DNA of 64,000 nt. It comes from Candidatus Bathyarchaeota archaeon. GTDB taxonomy: Archaea; Thermoproteota; Bathyarchaeia; Bathyarchaeales; Bathycorpusculaceae. The notes under the pieces were generated by a model. It searched no databases and was not told the origin of the DNA. It saw only the letters and a program-made list of their open reading frames with translations. Where the stretch lies: NCBI GenBank assembly GCA_026014595.1, contig JAOZHY010000002.1, forward strand, positions 1 through 64,000, given 5' to 3'. A program made the position numbers and the translations under genes. This document shows, piece by piece, positions 630-12,257 of the stretch (the stretch's first letter is position 1; each line of letters opens with the position of its first letter).

Positions 630-663
630 GAGCTGGGGATGGGAATTGAACCCATATAGAGCA
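630..663. repeat. attL: left 34-bp attachment repeat (tRNA-Cys 3' half)
   Basis: Matches 5486-5519 at 33 of 34 positions; the difference is at 655. On the minus strand it is the variable region, T-arm and 3' acceptor strand of tRNA-Cys. The flanking chromosome at 628-630 completes CCA, marking this as the original chromosomal 3' end displaced by integration. Confidence 0.88.
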
Positions 664-697
664 TCTTATCCTTATCTTCATTGTTTACGTTACTCAT
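630..697 (-). pseudogene. int(N): detached 5' end of the integrase gene
   Basis: On the minus strand an ATG at 697-695 opens a frame reading MSNVNNEDKDK, then runs into the attachment repeat in the same frame that the integrase uses at the right end (LY-x-GSIPIPS). Joining this piece through the 34-bp core to 5486 gives a continuous integrase of 321 codons. The upstream frame closes at a TGA, and no other start codon lies between. This is the SSV-type arrangement, where attP lies inside the integrase gene and integration separates the promoter and first codons from the rest. Confidence 0.8.
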
Positions 698-807
698 TCT
701 TAACCACTGGAGAAAACTTAGACACTGTACGCTTATTAATCATGTGAAACTATCTTCTATAAAACATTTATACTTGTACGTGGTATTCCATTACTGAGGT
801 GATAGCT

Positions 808-1068
808 ATGGATGAGGATGAATATACAATTGAGGCAGTTACTTCTCCTTTACCAATTGTTAAACGTTCGAGTGCTGTATATTCAAAGATTATTAACGAT
901 GTGAGTAAGAGACCATCTGGAATCTATAAGATTACTGTTCCATCTAAGAAGACATCTACTCTCTATCAAGCATTAGCTAAATTGGTTCGTAGCCGTACTG
1001 ACGTTAAATTACACAAAGTTTCTGGAATTGTGTATTTAGAAAAAATAGATAAACCATTTAAGAAATAA
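808..1068 (+). CDS. Small basic element protein, 86 aa, unknown
   Basis: Not recognised. Start chosen at ATG 808, 4 nt after a good ribosome site (GAGGTGAT, 796-803); a GTG at 799 overlaps that site. The product has an acidic N-terminus (MDEDEY), then a Lys/Arg-rich alternating beta-like body and a basic tail (KPFKK), with no Cys. A TATA-like TTTATACTT lies at 766-774. It is the first plus-strand gene of the element and is followed by a T-rich stretch that may end its transcript. A DNA-binding role is possible from charge alone, but this is a guess. Confidence 0.65.
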   Translation: MDEDEYTIEAVTSPLPIVKRSSAVYSKIINDVSKRPSGIYKITVPSKKTSTLYQALAKLVRSRTDVKLHKVSGIVYLEKIDKPFKK

Positions 1069-1161
1069 TACTTCTCTTCTTTTTCTTTCATTCTATAAAG
1101 TCCATAATCCTTTTATACTCTCTAAATATGTTTTTATATGTACATGACTGGCTATCATGTA

Positions 1162-1186
1162 TGAGGAGTTTTTTATACTCCCCTCT
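1162..1186 (+). promoter_or_regulatory. Promoter/hairpin ahead of the zinc-finger operon
   Basis: AT-rich TATA-like sequence at about 1126-1142 is followed by an imperfect hairpin: GAGGAGT at 1163-1169 faces ACTCCCCTC at 1077+100 to 1185, with two bulged C bases. It sits just before the first operon gene at 1214. It may be a leader hairpin or the terminator of the gene ending at 1068. Confidence 0.35.
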
Positions 1187-1213
1187 ATAGCGCTGTAGTG
1201 TTGGGGTAAAACA

Positions 1214-1345
1214 ATGCTGTGTAAAGAATGTCGTTCAATGATGGTCTTTCGTACTGTACAGAATTACAAAGTAGAATTAACCGTATTCGGTAAACCGATA
1301 CAGTACGACGTTACTCCAGTTGATAAGGGAGCATTGTTATGTTAG
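1214..1345 (+). CDS. Micro-protein with single CxxC knuckle, 43 aa
   Basis: ATG at 1214 has a GGGGT ribosome site 7 nt upstream. The product begins M-L-C-K-E-C, a single CxxC pair, then a beta-like stretch (YKVELTVFGKP), and ends L-L-C. A lone CxxC could bind metal only as a dimer or together with the terminal Cys. It overlaps the next small frame by 7 nt (stop 1343-1345, next ATG 1339), which suggests coupled translation. Function unknown. It is the first member of the Cys-rich operon. Confidence 0.5.
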   Translation: MLCKECRSMMVFRTVQNYKVELTVFGKPIQYDVTPVDKGALLC

Positions 1346-1428
1346 AAATTATGTATATACGGTTACTTTATCTCCCTTGTACTGTTACTGTGCTGTTAGT
1401 GTATTTTATAAATGTGTTGTTGGTGTAG
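1339..1428 (+). CDS. Possible single-pass membrane micropeptide, 29 aa
   Basis: An ATG overlapping the previous stop opens a 29-residue frame that is almost wholly hydrophobic (about 20 of Leu, Val, Ile, Tyr, Phe, Thr), enough for one transmembrane helix. It ends 14 nt before the next gene. No separate ribosome site is visible, so it would rely on coupling to the upstream gene. It may be chance, but its place inside a tightly packed operon favours a real gene. Confidence 0.35.
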   Translation: MLEIMYIRLLYLPCTVTVLLVYFINVLLV

Positions 1429-1442
1429 CGGAGGCTATGTGA

Positions 1443-1733
1443 ATGGAAATAGTGACTATACGTAAGGAAGGGGTGTTGTGCAGTGTGTGTCTTGAGCCTA
1501 TTAATGTGGATGGTGAAGCATTCAAATTCTTTAATAGGAATGTGCCTTATGATGTTCCGTTAAGAGCTGGTCATATAAGAATCGGTAATAACTGTAGAAT
1601 ACATTTCAGACATCTTGATTGTCAATATAAGTTGAAGCCTCATAAAGACAGTTTTGAAGACTATATTAAGAACATTAAGTTTCAGATAGAGATGACGAAG
1701 AACAAGAAGAAGTTTAAGGAAGGTAAGTTATGA
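1443..1733 (+). CDS. RING-H2-like zinc-binding protein, 96 aa
   Basis: ATG 1443 follows a GGAGG ribosome site (about 1431-1435). Candidate metal ligands are C13 and C16 (C-x2-C), then C51-x2-H54-x2-H57-x2-C60. These match the spacing of the first six ligands of a RING-H2 finger. The final C-x2-C pair of a full RING is missing; the C-terminus is a Lys-rich helix. It could therefore be a divergent RING-like or other treble-clef fold. The stop overlaps the next ATG (ATGA at 1730-1733). No function can be assigned; a DNA-binding or regulatory role is only a guess from the fold class and context. Confidence 0.65.
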   Translation: MEIVTIRKEGVLCSVCLEPINVDGEAFKFFNRNVPYDVPLRAGHIRIGNNCRIHFRHLDCQYKLKPHKDSFEDYIKNIKFQIEMTKNKKKFKEGKL

Positions 1734-1903
1734 GAACGAGTAACGATAGTGTTTTAGTTTATGGAGTATGTACCAGAGGTAAATGTAATTATTGCGGTAA
1801 GACCAGTGATGAAGTGTATGTAGAAACTCCTAATAGACGTGTCTGTATGGAATGCATAAGAAAAGGCGTAATAGAGTATCATGAGAGAAGGTGTAGTAAA
1901 TGA
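1730..1903 (+). CDS. Zinc-ribbon micro-protein, 57 aa
   Basis: ATG at 1730 overlaps the previous stop by 4 nt and its own stop overlaps the next start by 4 nt (ATGA at 1900-1903), so three genes in a row are translationally coupled. Cys residues occur as C14, C19-x2-C22 and C39-x2-C42, with C55 near the end. C19/C22 with C39/C42 form a standard two-knuckle zinc ribbon. The rest is basic. Function unknown. Confidence 0.6.
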   Translation: MRTSNDSVLVYGVCTRGKCNYCGKTSDEVYVETPNRRVCMECIRKGVIEYHERRCSK

Positions 1904-2280
1904 ACTGGAAGAACATAAAACACATTAAGAAAAGCAAGACTGAACACATATGTTTGGTATGTAAAAAGAATATTCCAGTAGGCTCATCATACATTTATAA
2001 GCCGTATATACCAGACAACATAACAGATGTTTTATTGGAATTGGGATTTAATAGCACATGGTACGATGACAAATACGGTTACGGAATACAATACGTTGGC
2101 ATACCATTATGCAGTGAGTCGTGTTTACATGAAGCTAAACTGTTAAGTAGAGAGTATCCGAGAAGATGGAAGGAAATGTTACAACCACTTATAAACAGTA
2201 AGTATGAATCTTTAAAAAGGATTAGTGTTGAGAGAGGAATATGGAATGAAGGAAGAAAGACGATGTCTATACTGCGGTAG
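1900..2280 (+). CDS. Zinc-finger protein, 126 aa, unknown
   Basis: Starts in the ATGA overlap with the previous gene. Near the N-terminus is C-L-V-C (C-x2-C) in a Lys-rich setting, and about 50 residues later C-S-E-S-C (C-x3-C). Together they could coordinate one zinc ion. A Tyr/Gly-rich loop lies between them. The C-terminal third is a charged helix. It overlaps the next micro-gene (start 2246) in another frame. No family recognised. Confidence 0.6.
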   Translation: MNWKNIKHIKKSKTEHICLVCKKNIPVGSSYIYKPYIPDNITDVLLELGFNSTWYDDKYGYGIQYVGIPLCSESCLHEAKLLSREYPRRWKEMLQPLINSKYESLKRISVERGIWNEGRKTMSILR

Positions 2281-2395
2281 AAAGTTTACAGTTAACAATA
2301 TGAGCAAACGTAAACTATACTGTGACCGTGTTTGTGGAGATAGATACAGGGATAGACTACGTGATTTAAAGCAAATAGCAAAGGCTGTAGCATGA
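2246..2395 (+). CDS. Zinc-ribbon micro-protein of C-x2-C...C-x3-C type, 49 aa
   Basis: ATG 2246 begins inside the 3' end of the previous gene. The protein holds RCLYCGRKF, then Y-C-D-R-V-C, giving C-x2-C-x14-C-x3-C, followed by a basic Arg-rich helix (RYRDRLRDL). This pattern is common in small phage and plasmid zinc proteins that bind DNA. A 35-bp overlap with the preceding gene is unusual but both frames are well formed. A decayed copy of this gene appears near 4341-4425. Confidence 0.6.
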   Translation: MKEERRCLYCGRKFTVNNMSKRKLYCDRVCGDRYRDRLRDLKQIAKAVA

Positions 2396-2416
2396 TGGTG
2401 ATGGAGGTGAAAACGT

Positions 2417-3352
2417 ATGACTGAAGTAAAGCGTATAGAAGATGATTTTAAACAACGTATTGGAAGGGACATTACTAAAGAGGATTATAAGAAGCTCTAT
2501 GAAACGTTTCCAAACATTGGTGATACTGGAATAACCCAATACGAATATGAAGAGTTTATGCGTAGAGAATACCAGAAAGAGATTGAGGCTAAACTATCAG
2601 AGGCTAAAATACAACGTGAGTATGAACTAGCTGAAAAGGCTAAGTTAGCTAAATTGAAGATTGAGGAAGAACAGTTAGCAATACAAGCTGAGAATAGACA
2701 ACGGGAGATGTATAAAAAAATGGAATTACATGGAGCACCTAAAGAATTCATTGATATGCTTAATGACGCAGAGAAAATACAAAGCAGAATCAATAACTAT
2801 AGGCGTTATGGAACAACTGATGACCTTAAGAAGATTAAGGAATTAGAAGGGAAGATAGCAGAGCTTAAGAGTGAAATGTTAAAGTTGCCGTTTAAAGGAT
2901 ATAGCATGGAATTCAAGCCTGTAACTACGTACATGAGTGTAGCCAATCCTGAACATATGTTATTGAAAGATGATAAAGGAAATTGGTATCTAAAAGGGTA
3001 CGATAAATATTATAAGGTCATAGAAGAGAATGGAAAATTGAAAGCAGTAAACAAACTTACGTTAGAGACGGTGTTTAATACTCCAGAGGTAGTTAATGAG
3101 GAACATGACATAATTTTATTGACTGAAGAAGAATTAAAAGCTAAAGAAGAGCAAGAGAGACAGGAGAAACTTAGACGTATAGAGCAGAAGAAGAAAGAGC
3201 AAGAAGCAAAAGCTACTTGGGTATGTGACGTATGCAAGACTGAAAATAAGATGGATGCTACTGTATGTGTTAGATGCAATATACCCAGAAAAGATGTACC
3301 ACAAGGACAGAAGCAACAGCATGACTCATTGATTAAGAAACTGTTTAAATAA
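2417..3352 (+). CDS. Coiled-coil protein with C-terminal RanBP2-type zinc finger, 311 aa
   Basis: The largest element gene apart from the integrase. ATG 2417 has a strong ribosome site (GGAGGTGA, 2403-2410). Residues 30-110 form a long charged coiled coil, rich in Glu, Lys and Ala. The middle (about 160-235) is globular. A second charged helix (KAKEEQERQEKLRRIEQKK) leads to a RanBP2-type finger: W-x-C-x2-C-x3-N-x6-C-x2-C, reading WVCDVC...N...CVRC. In eukaryotes this finger binds ubiquitin or single-stranded RNA; here nucleic-acid binding is the simpler inference. It may be a structural or scaffold protein. No replication or packaging motif is seen. Confidence 0.75.
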   Translation: MTEVKRIEDDFKQRIGRDITKEDYKKLYETFPNIGDTGITQYEYEEFMRREYQKEIEAKLSEAKIQREYELAEKAKLAKLKIEEEQLAIQAENRQREMYKKMELHGAPKEFIDMLNDAEKIQSRINNYRRYGTTDDLKKIKELEGKIAELKSEMLKLPFKGYSMEFKPVTTYMSVANPEHMLLKDDKGNWYLKGYDKYYKVIEENGKLKAVNKLTLETVFNTPEVVNEEHDIILLTEEELKAKEEQERQEKLRRIEQKKKEQEAKATWVCDVCKTENKMDATVCVRCNIPRKDVPQGQKQQHDSLIKKLFK

Positions 3353-3358
3353 TAAGAG

Positions 3359-3724
3359 ATGGTAAAAACGAGACAGTGTTTAATATGTAAAAGGTTTCTA
3401 CCTAAAGGTGGAAAGAAATACTGTAAAGACCATAACAGAAATAACCCTTTAAGACGTTACGCATTTGGAAAGACAGTATCAGCTTTTGAACCTCATAAAT
3501 TCTTTAGAAAGATTAATCATTATAAACGTAGAGGAAGAAAAAGAATACCTAAATCTAAACGGTATATTGAGGTTAAAGTAGCAAATATGCATCGTGCTTT
3601 AATTATGAGACATAAGCATAGACCAGAAACAGAGTATAGACCAGAGAATAGACCTTACAGTAAATACAAAGATATGTTGCAGAAGAAGTATCCACATGCA
3701 GAGATTGTTTACATATTTCCATAA
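3359..3724 (+). CDS. Basic zinc-knuckle protein, 121 aa
   Basis: Starts at ATG 3359, 6 nt after the previous stop, with AAGAG as a weak ribosome site. The N-terminus carries CLICKRFLPKGGKKYCKDH, that is C-x2-C-x10-C-x2-H, a compact zinc knuckle. The rest is very basic (RRGRKRIPKSKRY and RHKHRPETEY) and ends in a short hydrophobic strand. The charge suggests nucleic-acid binding. It is the last gene of the operon. No family recognised. Confidence 0.65.
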   Translation: MVKTRQCLICKRFLPKGGKKYCKDHNRNNPLRRYAFGKTVSAFEPHKFFRKINHYKRRGRKRIPKSKRYIEVKVANMHRALIMRHKHRPETEYRPENRPYSKYKDMLQKKYPHAEIVYIFP

Positions 3725-3801
3725 TGATAACTTATATTTAAATATCGTTTCGTTATACCATAAGAAAGATAACGCTACGCTACGTTCCCCTCTGTCACTA
3801 C

Positions 3802-3817
3802 GCTACGCTAGAATAAT
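3802..3817 (+). repeat. Inverted repeat, left arm (16 bp)
   Basis: GCTACGCTAGAATAAT here is the exact reverse complement of 4572-4587. The arm overlaps a tandem GCTACGCTA motif that also occurs about 30 bp upstream. Confidence 0.8.
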
Positions 3818-3937
3818 AACAGGAATAATAGTGTGGAATTAACTAAGTTTTCCATATAAAGAAAGATAAGACGTAAAGACCATTAACAACATTGTCCTAA
3901 TTAGGTCAAGTAGTAATCTTTAACAAAAATTAAGTTT

Positions 3938-3975
3938 CCTAGAGTCCTAGAGTATGGTCCTAGAGTCCCTAGAGG
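3938..3975 (+). repeat. CCTAGAG iteron cluster, four copies
   Basis: CCTAGAGT at 3938-3945, 3946-3953 and 3959-3966, and CTAGAGG at the end of 3968-3975. Short tandem iterons of this kind often bind a replication or partition protein; which protein is unknown here. Confidence 0.6.
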
Positions 3976-4340
3976 AATCCATGATGATGATGTAATGGTG
4001 ACCAGAGTAATAGTACGGGTCATTATTTCACACATCCATTATCACAGATTACATGTACAGACTAAGTGTATGCTATATGGTTAATATGTTCTTCTCATAA
4101 ACACTTTATTCATTGAAAAAATGCTAAGTTTCCTTAATCACTTTCACGAAATAACAACAGTAGCTAACAATGGACATTTTCGTCAGTCTTTATATGAGGC
4201 GTTGATATTCCACGTATTGAAGCAGTAAAAGACATTCTAATCTCTAAGCTAATAGGTTATTTCAGTAAAAGAGGAATAATCCATTGAGAACATTCTGTTG
4301 AATAGAGCAATAAAACTTAGAGAAAATTAACAACTTGTAA

Positions 4341-4425
4341 ACGTGAACAATGTTATGATTAAAAGAAACTGTACTGTGACCGTACTCTGGAATAGACTGA
4401 ATAGAGAGCTTCTTTAAGCAATTGT
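4341..4425 (+). pseudogene. Decayed copy of the 2246 zinc-ribbon gene
   Basis: The 18 nt at 4366-4383 match 2312-2329 at 17 positions, and flanking bases (AACAAT before, AATAGACT and TTAAGCAA after) align loosely with the same gene. The frame is broken, so this reads as the relic of a second gene copy. Confidence 0.4.
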
Positions 4426-4571
4426 GAAATATTTAACAAAGATTCCACGTGTACACAGCATCTACAGTTCAGCAATACTGGCTCAGTAAAAGAATTCTTA
4501 AAATATCCAGAATCAATGCTTAAAACGACATGGCTTAACAGGGTACTTTATAAAAAAAATAATAAAAAATA

Positions 4572-4587
4572 ATTATTCTAGCGTAGC
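4572..4587 (-). repeat. Inverted repeat, right arm (16 bp)
   Basis: Exact reverse complement of 3802-3817. It ends immediately before the stop codon of the integrase, so the pair frames the whole non-coding block. Confidence 0.8.
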
Positions 4588-5553
4588 TTACTTTCTCTTT
4601 CTAAATAGTTTGTATCCTTCCATGTCACAGACGTATTCATACCCAGATTCAATAAGAGCAGATGCTTCAGTAACAGTCTTAGCAATCTTACAGACGTACT
4701 CATCATTCTTAAACTCTACCAGATGCGTATAGACCAAAGTATTCTTAATGTTCCTATGTCCTAACAGGTTCATAACGTACAGAATGTCCTTACTCTTAGC
4801 ATACTCCATTGTAGCTTTATAGTGACGTAAAGATTTCCATGTGATAGATGCGATCATAGGGTTACAGAGTGCATGGGAGACATTCTTCTTTTCTCTTATG
4901 AACCAGTTACGTAAAGACTCTATTCTAACATTAACGTTACTTTTGAATACATAGTCAGATGTACGTGGTAATGTACTCAGTAAACCAATCAGTTGATTAG
5001 AAACTTTAAGTCTTCTTGCATTACTTCCCTTCTCTGGATTATTGACAGTAACATAACAATTCTGGAAGTCTATATCTATCCACTTAAGATTGAATACTTC
5101 TCCAGATCTAGCTCCAGTTTCATATATTGCCCTTGTGAATATTCTAAGTTTCCTTGGTAAAGCAGACAGTAACGATTCAATGTCTTTCTCCAATGGTATA
5201 AACGGTAACTTATCTGTTCTCTTATACCTCGGTTTTATCAATGGAATCTTAGCGTAATTACAGTAGTTAGCATAGACATCTATCATTACCTCTTTTCTAC
5301 CATCACTTACATGGAGATTAGCAATGTAGCCCAGTACACTCTCAGAATCTTTAATGTTACAGTGCTTCATTAACTGTTTAAGAATCTTAGCGTAATTCTG
5401 GACAATGGTAGTTTCTTTATACCCTCTTTTCTTCAGTGACCACAGAAACTCTGTTATTCCACTGGAGTATAGGGATTCAGTATTAGAGCTGGGGATGGGA
5501 ATTGAACCCACATAGAGCAGCTCTGCAGGCTGCCGCCTGAACCGTTCGGCCAC
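4588..5553 (-). CDS. int(C): SSV-type tyrosine recombinase, main part
   Basis: Catalyses integration and excision at tRNA-Cys. The catalytic part is complete: the first Arg in TGARSGEVFNL, the box II segment SLRHYKATMEY, then LLGHRNIKNTLVYTHL with the Tyr nucleophile. Residues about 12-23 (LLYVGSIPIPSS) are the translation of the tRNA 3' half, so attP lies inside the gene. The listed GTG start at 5553 sits in the tRNA gene and was created by integration; the native start is the ATG at 697-695 at the other end. The gene now has no promoter of its own beyond the tRNA gene, which is read in the same direction, so read-through could still express it. Confidence 0.88.
   Translation of the reverse strand: MAERFRRQPAELLYVGSIPIPSSNTESLYSSGITEFLWSLKKRGYKETTIVQNYAKILKQLMKHCNIKDSESVLGYIANLHVSDGRKEVMIDVYANYCNYAKIPLIKPRYKRTDKLPFIPLEKDIESLLSALPRKLRIFTRAIYETGARSGEVFNLKWIDIDFQNCYVTVNNPEKGSNARRLKVSNQLIGLLSTLPRTSDYVFKSNVNVRIESLRNWFIREKKNVSHALCNPMIASITWKSLRHYKATMEYAKSKDILYVMNLLGHRNIKNTLVYTHLVEFKNDEYVCKIAKTVTEASALIESGYEYVCDMEGYKLFRKRK
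5486..5519. repeat. attR: right 34-bp attachment repeat
   Basis: Forms the 3' half of the restored tRNA-Cys and also codes residues of the integrase. After the discriminator base it reads C-T-A instead of CCA, showing that the 3' end was supplied by the element. Confidence 0.88.
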
Positions 5554-5559
5554 CCCAGC
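5487..5559 (-). tRNA. tRNA-Cys (GCA)
   Basis: 73 nt with a full cloverleaf: 7-bp acceptor GCTGGGG/CCCCAGC, anticodon stem GCAGC/GCTGC with loop CTGCAGA giving GCA, T-arm loop TTCAATT, and discriminator U as expected for Cys. The T-stem base pair 49-65 is G-U here but A-U in the displaced copy at 630-663. CCA is not encoded. AT-rich TATA-like sequence lies near 5585-5595 on the minus strand. Confidence 0.93.
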
Positions 5560-5677
5560 AAGGTGACATTAGGGTTAAGACTGAAATAAAAATATTGTTG
5601 ACTACCTCTTCATGTTTCAGCAGCGCCTATATTCTTTTCTACTCAATTCGCCTGTTTCTTCCTAAAACAAAAAATGG

Positions 5678-5730
5678 CCTATTTGGAGCCTATTAGTGGT
5701 TGGTTGCAGGAACCTATAGAGGGGAGGGGT
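5678..5730 (+). repeat. Conserved 53-nt element, copy A (candidate structured RNA)
   Basis: Aligns without gaps to 10878-10930 with 42 of 53 identical, including a block of 13 identical bases (CCTATTTGGAGCC). A small hairpin (GGTT at 5698-5701 with AACC at 5711-5714) is kept in both copies with one compensatory change. It lies upstream of a gene in each case. Confidence 0.6.
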
Positions 5731-5832
5731 CGCTATTGGCGCCGAAAACAGCCAAAACCATGCAGAAAACAGCAGAGGAGCGGATAGATAAAAGTGACCA
5801 GTGTCAACTCGCTTGTTTCTATGTGCGGTGAG

Positions 5833-10755: not shown

Positions 10756-11088
10756 TTCGCCAGCCACCTCAACACGCCTGCGTTTTCTGACAAAACAAAG
10801 CATCTAAGAACGCTTTGCTTCATTCACCCTCTTTAATAGGAGAGAGGTACAGATGCCTCGCGCTGATAGCGCAGAAACCTATTTGGAGCCTAATAGCAGT
10901 TCTATGCAGGAACTAGTAGAGGGTAGGGCTGCCCGGAGCTGTCAACGCTATGCATGGCTCCTTTTAAGGGGCTATATACAAAAATCGCACATCAGTTCAG
11001 CCTACCGCCAGCACCAGATTGCAGCGCTAATAAAATCAAAGATAAATAGTTGGACTGCACATTCCTATGGAATAGGATGGAGATTTAA
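10756..11088. other. Intergenic region with repeat element B, leader of the Lsm gene
   Basis: Contains the 53-nt element at 10878-10930, a TATA-like GCTATATAC near 10970, a second AT-rich site near 11029 and a ribosome site GGATGGAG just before 11089. A 94-codon frame (10853-11137) runs through the repeat; it overlaps the Lsm start and has no family resemblance, so it is not called. Confidence 0.5.
10878..10930 (+). repeat. Conserved 53-nt element, copy B (candidate structured RNA)
   Basis: Gap-free match to 5678-5730 (42/53). Its hairpin is AGTTC (10898-10902) with GAACT (10910-10914) and a loop holding TGCAG. The outer pair is A-U here and G-C in copy A, a compensatory change. It sits 158 nt upstream of the Lsm gene. 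Confidence 0.6.
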
Positions 11089-11511
11089 GTGTCTGTACCA
11101 CAGAGAAAATTCTTCACCGAAGTCGCGGCGCTGGTAGAAAAAACCGTCAGCGTCTCAACCACCACGGGAAAAACATTCACCGGCACACTAATCGGCATTA
11201 ACCCCGACAACCTGAGCCTGTGCATAGCCGAAGCAAAAGACGAAACTGGAAAAGTCACGCATAGGCTGTTCCTAAACGGCAACGTCGTGGCTCAAATTTC
11301 AAGCGCCGAGAAACCCTTCGATCTGCAAGCCTTAGCGAGCCGCCTAGAAAAAGTGTTCCCAACAATGGTTAAGCTGTACGAAGACAAAGGATTCATATGG
11401 GTCATGGACAAGGTGAAGCTGACTGAACGCGGTGTTGTGGAAGGTTCAGGTCCAGCTGCAGAACGCGTGCAAAGAGTCTACGAACAATTCATGAGCGAAA
11501 CAAAGGGTTAG
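11089..11511 (+). CDS. Lsm/Sm-like RNA-binding protein with C-terminal domain (SmAP3 type), 140 aa
   Basis: The first 75 residues are an Sm fold: the Sm1 region SVSTTTGKTFTGTLIGINPD and the Sm2-like LFLNGNVVAQISS. Residues 80-140 add a helical C-terminal domain (DLQALASRLEKVFP...). This two-part layout is the SmAP3 type of archaeal Sm protein rather than the 75-residue SmAP1/2. It probably forms a ring that binds RNA. Start GTG 11089 with GGATGGAG upstream. Its stop overlaps the convergent PAC2 gene by 4 nt. Confidence 0.78.
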   Translation: MSVPQRKFFTEVAALVEKTVSVSTTTGKTFTGTLIGINPDNLSLCIAEAKDETGKVTHRLFLNGNVVAQISSAEKPFDLQALASRLEKVFPTMVKLYEDKGFIWVMDKVKLTERGVVEGSGPAAERVQRVYEQFMSETKG

Positions 11512-12257
11512 ATGAACCAGCGCATCTGCTCCTCTTTCTTCTTTTCTTCAGCGATGTTTCTGATTAGCCCGAAGGACTCAAGTATCTTCTTTGTCTGCTC
11601 CGCCGCAGCGTCCAGCTTAGAAACGTCAATCTTCAAATCCAAGTATTTACCGAGCGTAGCCAAGGCGTGTCGAGTGGCGTTCACGTCAGGAAACATACCC
11701 AGCGTATCCACCAGCAGCGCAAACCCCTTCAGGTTCCGAAGCCTCCCCATGCCTATGAGAAGCCCTGCGATGCCGAAAATGTGCCCAACCATAATCTTAG
11801 TTCCCAAATCCAACGCTTCCTTCATCGAATCCGCGTCCGTGGCAGCGCTGTAGATGGCTGGAACAGGCTGAACCTCATCCTTCTTGAAACCGCCGATAGA
11901 AATGACTGTGCGACAGCCAAGTTCCTGCACGATGTCCAGCACCTTACCGCAAAGCTCGTACTGCCCAAAAGTCGTTAACGCCTGGCTGTTGCCGTACCAG
12001 ATTATCAAATCGCGTTTGCCCTCTCCTCGCTTATAATAGTACAGCTCATTAACGGGCGAATTAACGCCTCCGCCTTCCGTTGTCGATGCAAAATCCTGAA
12101 ACGAGGCTGACACGATTTCGGCGAAACGCTTTGCCTTCAACTCGTTTATCAGGTGCAAAGCTGCAATGTTAGCGACGAAACCTATTCCCGGCAAGCCTTC
12201 AATAAGGATTGGGTCGTTGAGCTCTGGTTTTTCATGGATTTCTATGGTGCAGACCAT
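11508..12257 (-). CDS. PAC2-family protein (proteasome assembly chaperone-like), 249 aa
   Basis: The PAC2 core is clear: PILIEGLPGIGFVANIAALH at the N-terminus and TVISIGGFKKDE in the middle, followed by GIAGLLIGMG. Archaeal members include proteasome assembly factors such as PbaB; others are unassigned. ATG 12257 is used because the homologous region starts here; upstream codons up to 12296 are open but unlike the family. The C-terminus ends R-W-F-I, not a clear HbYX motif, so direct docking on the proteasome is uncertain. Confidence 0.85.
   Translation of the reverse strand: MVCTIEIHEKPELNDPILIEGLPGIGFVANIAALHLINELKAKRFAEIVSASFQDFASTTEGGGVNSPVNELYYYKRGEGKRDLIIWYGNSQALTTFGQYELCGKVLDIVQELGCRTVISIGGFKKDEVQPVPAIYSAATDADSMKEALDLGTKIMVGHIFGIAGLLIGMGRLRNLKGFALLVDTLGMFPDVNATRHALATLGKYLDLKIDVSKLDAAAEQTKKILESFGLIRNIAEEKKKEEQMRWFI

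Follow-up and report, generated by a model that had tools for sequence, protein, structure and literature searches.

Probable suicidal split of a short-tailed integrase gene at tRNA-Cys, and its recurrence in a Bathyarchaeia element family

The DNA analysed here (the window) is the stretch of 64,000 nucleotides from position 1 of contig JAOZHY010000002.1 of a Candidatus Bathyarchaeota archaeon (assembly GCA_026014595.1), and within its positions 630–5519 lies an integrated mobile element of 4.86 kb, whose target is the tRNA-Cys(GCA) gene of this Bathyarchaeia genome. The element carries a tyrosine recombinase (integrase) gene in two parts, int(N) and int(C), located at its opposite ends next to the attachment sites attL and attR. 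The features that compose this arrangement are as follows.

630–663, minus strand: attL, the element-side copy of the repeat core, a truncated 3' half of tRNA-Cys (sequence check)
665–697, minus strand: int(N), detached codons 1–11, MSNVNNEDKDK, in frame into attL (sequence; counterparts in 16 other elements)
698–807, minus strand: spacer between int(N) and the divergently oriented gene at 808; the native integrase promoter would be located here (sequence reading)
4588–5520, minus strand: int(C), the integrase from codon 12 (CTG here) onwards, including the tRNA 3' half and ending with the stop codon (PF00589)
5486–5519, minus strand: attR, the tRNA-side copy of the core (repeat check and flank homology)
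5486–5559, minus strand: tRNA-Cys(GCA), intact after integration (ARAGORN, Rfam)

The direct repeat formed by 630–663 and 5486–5519 is 34 bp long with a single mismatch (655 versus 5511), as verified by sequence check, and this is far above chance expectation. On the minus strand its core reads TGCTCTAT[A/G]TGGGTTCAATTCCCATCCCCAGCTC. The right copy corresponds to the 3' half of a complete tRNA gene (ARAGORN; 57.5 bits with Rfam), and neither program called a tRNA at the attL copy. In the right flank, homology to G001, a genome of the same genus, stops exactly at attR; G001 has an element-free tRNA-Cys with the matching right flank and an unrelated sequence on the left side. The target tRNA is restored by the element and its truncated copy is found at the other border, as is usual for integrative elements that use tRNA genes. 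Since the base A of attL differs from the tRNA base G, which is also present in element-free G001, the crossover most likely took place in or 3' of the T-loop. This A is probably the element's own base, the alternative being a later mutation, and it turns codon 15 of the integrase frame into ATG.

The sequence-only reading of this locus had proposed that the two ends encode one protein, and exact inspection bears this out. The ATG codon at 697–695 (minus strand) opens the peptide MSNVNNEDKDK, which runs in frame into attL, attL supplies codons 12–22, and the right repeat keeps the same frame until the stop codon at 4588–4590, so that the joined integrase has 321 amino acids. Its int(C) part is a tyrosine recombinase of the PF00589 family with R149, R243, H266 and Y275 (joined numbering) in place, and the closest solved structure is XerA 5hxy. 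The core-binding domain begins at profile position 28, downstream of both the detached and the att-coded residues, and the detached 11-residue peptide contains no domain. Reading of the upstream sequence revealed a TATA-like TATAAATG approximately 70 nt before ATG 697 and no obvious ribosome-binding site within 698–807. Taken alone, however, the in-frame start of the window element is not significant: an ATG- or GTG-opened frame of 8–25 codons is expected with a chance of about 12% at random positions and frames within such elements. Because it could be accidental, relatives were looked for, and it is through them that the start gains significance.

When 101 relatives and 163 genomes of the order were searched, many integrase frames turned out to read through the 3' end of an RNA gene. 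A far copy of the repeat was sought for each relative, and the integrase frame was read upstream of it. A start codon (ATG or GTG) located 9–19 codons before the far repeat was registered in the integrase frame of 17 out of 19 elements and in 2 of the 38 other frames (Fisher p = 2e-10 at the level of elements, ignoring their relatedness). By target groups such a start was present in 8 of 10 (binomial p = 2e-6 against the 12% background). A far repeat of L053, 868 bp away and within the integrase 3' end, was discarded, as it is not an element end. In the family, elements start from 3.6 kb and detached parts span 9–17 codons, hence the supposed singularity of an 11-codon detached part on an element shorter than 5 kb did not survive the comparison.

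The nearest relative, L048 (57% identical), is also inserted at tRNA-Cys, and the copies of its 46-bp repeat lie 8.8 kb apart. Its far repeat is entered in frame by MVNNKTKTN, upstream of which there is a ribosome-binding-like site AAAGGAG; the first start codon of its int(C) is GTG near codon 28, with none within the repeat. Three elements at tRNA-Thr (L060, L061, L063) and one at tRNA-Ala(GGC) (L062) share the N-part MSI[DE]KITK[AD]K, and that of a further tRNA-Thr element, L051, is MEIVSIDKITKAK. The far repeat is preceded by MN[KE]Q..PEKLDRLFE in the tRNA-Ala(CGC) elements L100 and L102, by MSQEIREPQKSVSRK and its variants in the elements at an intron-bearing tRNA (L101, L104, L106, L107), by VTEIENKPENVI in the tRNA-Gln element L123, by MTEIENEPK in L126 at antisense tRNA-Pro and by MSEETRKEEPKELLCPK in L115. 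When N-part, att and early body of the intron-tRNA type were used as one query, the N-part and the body were matched separately, 5–7 kb apart, in 5 of 5 elements (G146, G145 twice, G048 and G136); the tRNA-Thr query composed of N-part and body was likewise split, and no contiguous integrase gene of the intron-tRNA type was found with the former query. A natural contiguous junction, MNEQTPPEKLDRLFE-AGSSPARST-FTPARPHFESAQPLEVIL, exists in the tandem second copy of L102, followed by a frameshift in a decayed body. Together with the in-frame reconstruction and its recurrence in 17 of 19 elements, this junction supports the initial proposal that attP, the attachment site of the circular form, lies inside the integrase gene and that integration splits it. 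Tandem elements at one target were registered in L051, L102, L052 and L110; at their inner junctions the N-part of one element precedes the integrase body of another, which could rebuild an intact integrase gene.

Based on these data one can assume that in the circular form the integrase gene would begin with ATG 697 and reach the body by way of attP, which copies the 3' half of tRNA-Cys and encodes codons 12–22. The integrase would recombine attP with the tRNA gene, restoring the tRNA and cutting its own gene, so that int(N) with the start codon and the putative promoter would stay at the attL end, while the catalytic body deprived of its start would be placed behind the tRNA. Removal of the native start and promoter, as originally suggested, agrees with the layout of about 16 related elements, the promoter itself remaining a presumed one. 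Integration would therefore switch the integrase off by taking away its expression rather than a folded domain, because the core-binding domain starts only downstream of the detached and att-coded residues. Excision would then need either a related integrase that is intact and acts in trans, or leaky initiation of translation at some fortuitous start, for example GTG in the tRNA T-stem. We estimate at roughly 0.87 the probability that the window element is an example of such a suicidal split of a 321-amino acid integrase by integration at tRNA-Cys, and that this split is the rule for the Bathyarchaeia element family.

Several observations weigh against it. IMG/VR, phage records and 257 genomes of the Bathyarchaeia class yielded neither a circular form, nor a read-through read, nor an intact free gene, and an IMG/VR search with the family alignment gave only distant relatives (22–39%). 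Two elements with an RNase P or unknown target, L112 and L113, have no in-frame start. The remaining points concern the start codon and the meaning of the conserved N-parts. ATG codons 12 and 15 are located at or in attL, and the true start could lie inside the repeat: the integrase would then begin at codon 15, which is ATG in attP or attL and GTG in the tRNA copy (attR), and remain functional after integration similarly to pNOB8-type enzymes, with the upstream ATG being incidental. The lack of any domain in the removed residues is in line with this possibility, as are some relatives with an in-frame ATG inside the target RNA gene (MPSLNRRRV at RNase P). It is nevertheless unlikely, as an upstream in-frame start is shared by 17 of 19 elements, the N-parts are conserved within groups, and in L048, L062, L100 and L123 no usable start codon lies within the repeat or close to it. 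In a contig of G126 an intron-tRNA-type N-part precedes a tRNA-Ala-type T-arm with an insertion of 6 bp, that is two codons, which keeps the frame. No integrase starting inside the repeat was seen in the relatives examined, except possibly some of those targeting RNase P RNA. The same four elements without a start make it likely that translation is lost after integration, although in the window itself a truncated integrase may possibly be produced from GTG in the tRNA T-stem by read-through from the tRNA. For pTN3, the tRNA promoter is considered a possible source of int(C) transcripts, and in vivo evidence of int(C) expression was reported (PMC8371274).

The N-part may also be non-coding, if DNA near the far repeat is conserved as an arm-binding site of the integrase or as a promoter and the open frame is only a by-product. 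Conservation at the level of DNA with few synonymous changes was indeed observed for N-part codons within groups, and attP or promoter DNA could be conserved in this way; in the intron-tRNA group the upstream DNA beyond the codons is equally conserved. Within the target groups in general, synonymous changes are too rare to call selection. Thus the expected conservation of N-terminal codons was found within target groups, but it does not clearly exceed that of the neighbouring DNA. Quite improbable as it is, this explanation has to account for the integrase frame being open with a start codon in 8 of 10 target groups, where the other two frames are for the most part closed immediately, and for many int(C) genes that have no start codon without the N-part.

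The preferred interpretation, a coding N-part separated by integration, leaves the att-coded residues as a linker. They had been regarded as conserved protein (GSIPIPS), which was not sustained, since it is the tRNA T-arm that dictates these residues; among the relatives each of its three frames is used (GSN/GSI, GFKS and VRIP), and only the requirement of an open frame is kept. Targets of the family include tRNA-Cys, -Thr, -Ala, -Gln, the intron-bearing tRNA and antisense tRNA-Pro. In the last case (L126, L110, L120, L124 and L058) the integrase frame begins antisense in the 5' half of tRNA-Pro, that is, integration occurred at the 5' side of the tRNA. Probably RNase P RNA is also used, as a well-supported clade is inserted at its 3' end (RF00373 in L052, L112 and L117), and integrases linked to this RNA were found also in L054, L105, L116, L125 and L128. 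All three frames of the RNA 3' end are again in use among the bodies of the RNase P clade (RVTSSTP, GGLRPAHQP, KAGYxQH). The split is less certain there, because L112 lacks the far in-frame start that is clear in L052, and the RNase P gene itself contains an ATG in some near copies. The target of another integrase clade (L103:1879–1939, also L064 and L115) resembles an archaeal C/D box small RNA on the opposite strand (E = 0.0086, below the gathering score). An att-coded linker tolerating any open frame would allow the family to move among tRNA genes, antisense tRNA-Pro and RNase P RNA.

The rest of the window element is composed of the following parts.

808–3724, plus strand: cargo, a series of small open reading frames, several of them zinc-finger-like (reading of frames and domains)
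3725–4560, no strand: AT-rich region, for the most part non-coding, that contains a 19-nt inverted repeat, 3799–3817 and 4572–4590 (sequence)

The cargo includes a 311-amino acid coiled-coil protein with a RanBP-type zinc ribbon (2417–3352), no counterpart of which was found in 70 other genomes of the family. No replication or capsid gene was recognised within 808–3724, and the AT-rich stretch is a possible candidate for the replication origin of the element. In the 4-kb tRNA-Thr element L060 a 364-amino acid protein (10992–12086) with a HUH-like motif PHFHVLG, matching nothing in Pfam or PHROG, may possibly be a rolling-circle replication initiator. Outside the element, at window positions 5677–5780, there is a dispersed repeat of about 100 bp; the window's genome contains more than 20 copies of it, and the same-genus genome also has many.

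The locus was initially described as SSV-type, after the Sulfolobus spindle-shaped virus (SSV), and only the architectural part of this label is justified. Like SSV1/SSV2, pTN3 and pT26-2 (type I, suicidal; PMC8371274), the Bathyarchaeia family has attP within the integrase frame, a tRNA target and a gene in two pieces, of which int(C) follows the restored tRNA and int(N) lies at the opposite end of the element. The difference is in the catalytic domain, PF16795 there and PF00589 here. Four family members have PF00589 (down to 5.8e-21) as their only recombinase domain and match neither PF16795 nor PF07935 even at E up to 10, whereas the SSV1 integrase (D-335), taken as a control, matches them at 1.5e-61 and 2.6e-34, respectively. 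Given this and the XerA-type best structures, the family is, judged by its domains, SSV-type in architecture and not by descent. The similar layout and tRNA target could suggest a true but strongly diverged member of the PF16795 suicidal lineage, which we consider highly improbable in view of these profile searches and structural matches. The detached parts differ as well: SSV1 separates 63 codons before att (D-335 at 1968–961, att at 1778–1735), covered by PF07935, and the window element only 11, free of any domain.

With pNOB8-type (type II) integrases the family shares PF00589 and a position next to the target tRNA in the same direction, but there the gene is intact after integration, while here the start codon and the promoter region are 4.8 kb away, GTG codon 15 being a conceivable fallback start. 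XerA enzymes (5hxy, 4a8e) are the closest solved sequences, with a shared core and catalytic boxes, although they resolve chromosome dimers, are encoded by intact genes and have no attP within them. Tyrosine recombinases of Bathyarchaeia with an N-terminal zinc ribbon (e.g. G000:C35:31965–32819) have bodies 36–50% identical and fall into one clade with the tRNA-Cys pair, which is itself supported at 100/99, but their genes are intact, present in several copies per genome and, in those inspected, not located at tRNA 3' ends. In G000 intact copies occur also at C49:85142–86029, C19:21958–22836, C46:60491–61369, C4:10181–11074 and C35:150227–151093, and across Bathyarchaeia these recombinases look like an undescribed transposon-like family. 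Split forms are distributed over several well-supported clades of the tree, in which the root is arbitrary and labels are imperfect (duplicate loci are labelled 'other'), so that ancestry of split versus zinc-ribbon forms is not readable from it.

A review of 2021 tied suicidal integrases to PF16795 with a single origin (PMC8371274), and an SSV1-like split integrase is on record in a thaumarchaeon (PMC6563490). No report of a suicidal integrase from Bathyarchaeia or with PF00589 was found in the open literature that we searched, the unnamed fam30 groups of the review being outside this comparison. Since the single event of the review lies in the PF16795 group and the Bathyarchaeia family belongs to PF00589, there are good grounds to believe that suicidal integration arose here independently, in a minimal form that removes only the start codon, the promoter and an unstructured tail. 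Such elements can be diagnosed by an in-frame start located 9–19 codons in front of the far repeat, a feature overlooked by ordinary gene callers. The significance is probably wider than first stated and concerns the whole family with its convergent minimal suicidal integration. A second family with this layout would mean that integrating and then losing the integrase is a convergent solution to the control of directionality, as opposed to the single-lineage view (PMC8371274), and, because only a short tail is removed in Bathyarchaeia, it would separate two possible reasons for this design that are confounded in SSV1, namely the removal of a domain and the shutdown of expression.

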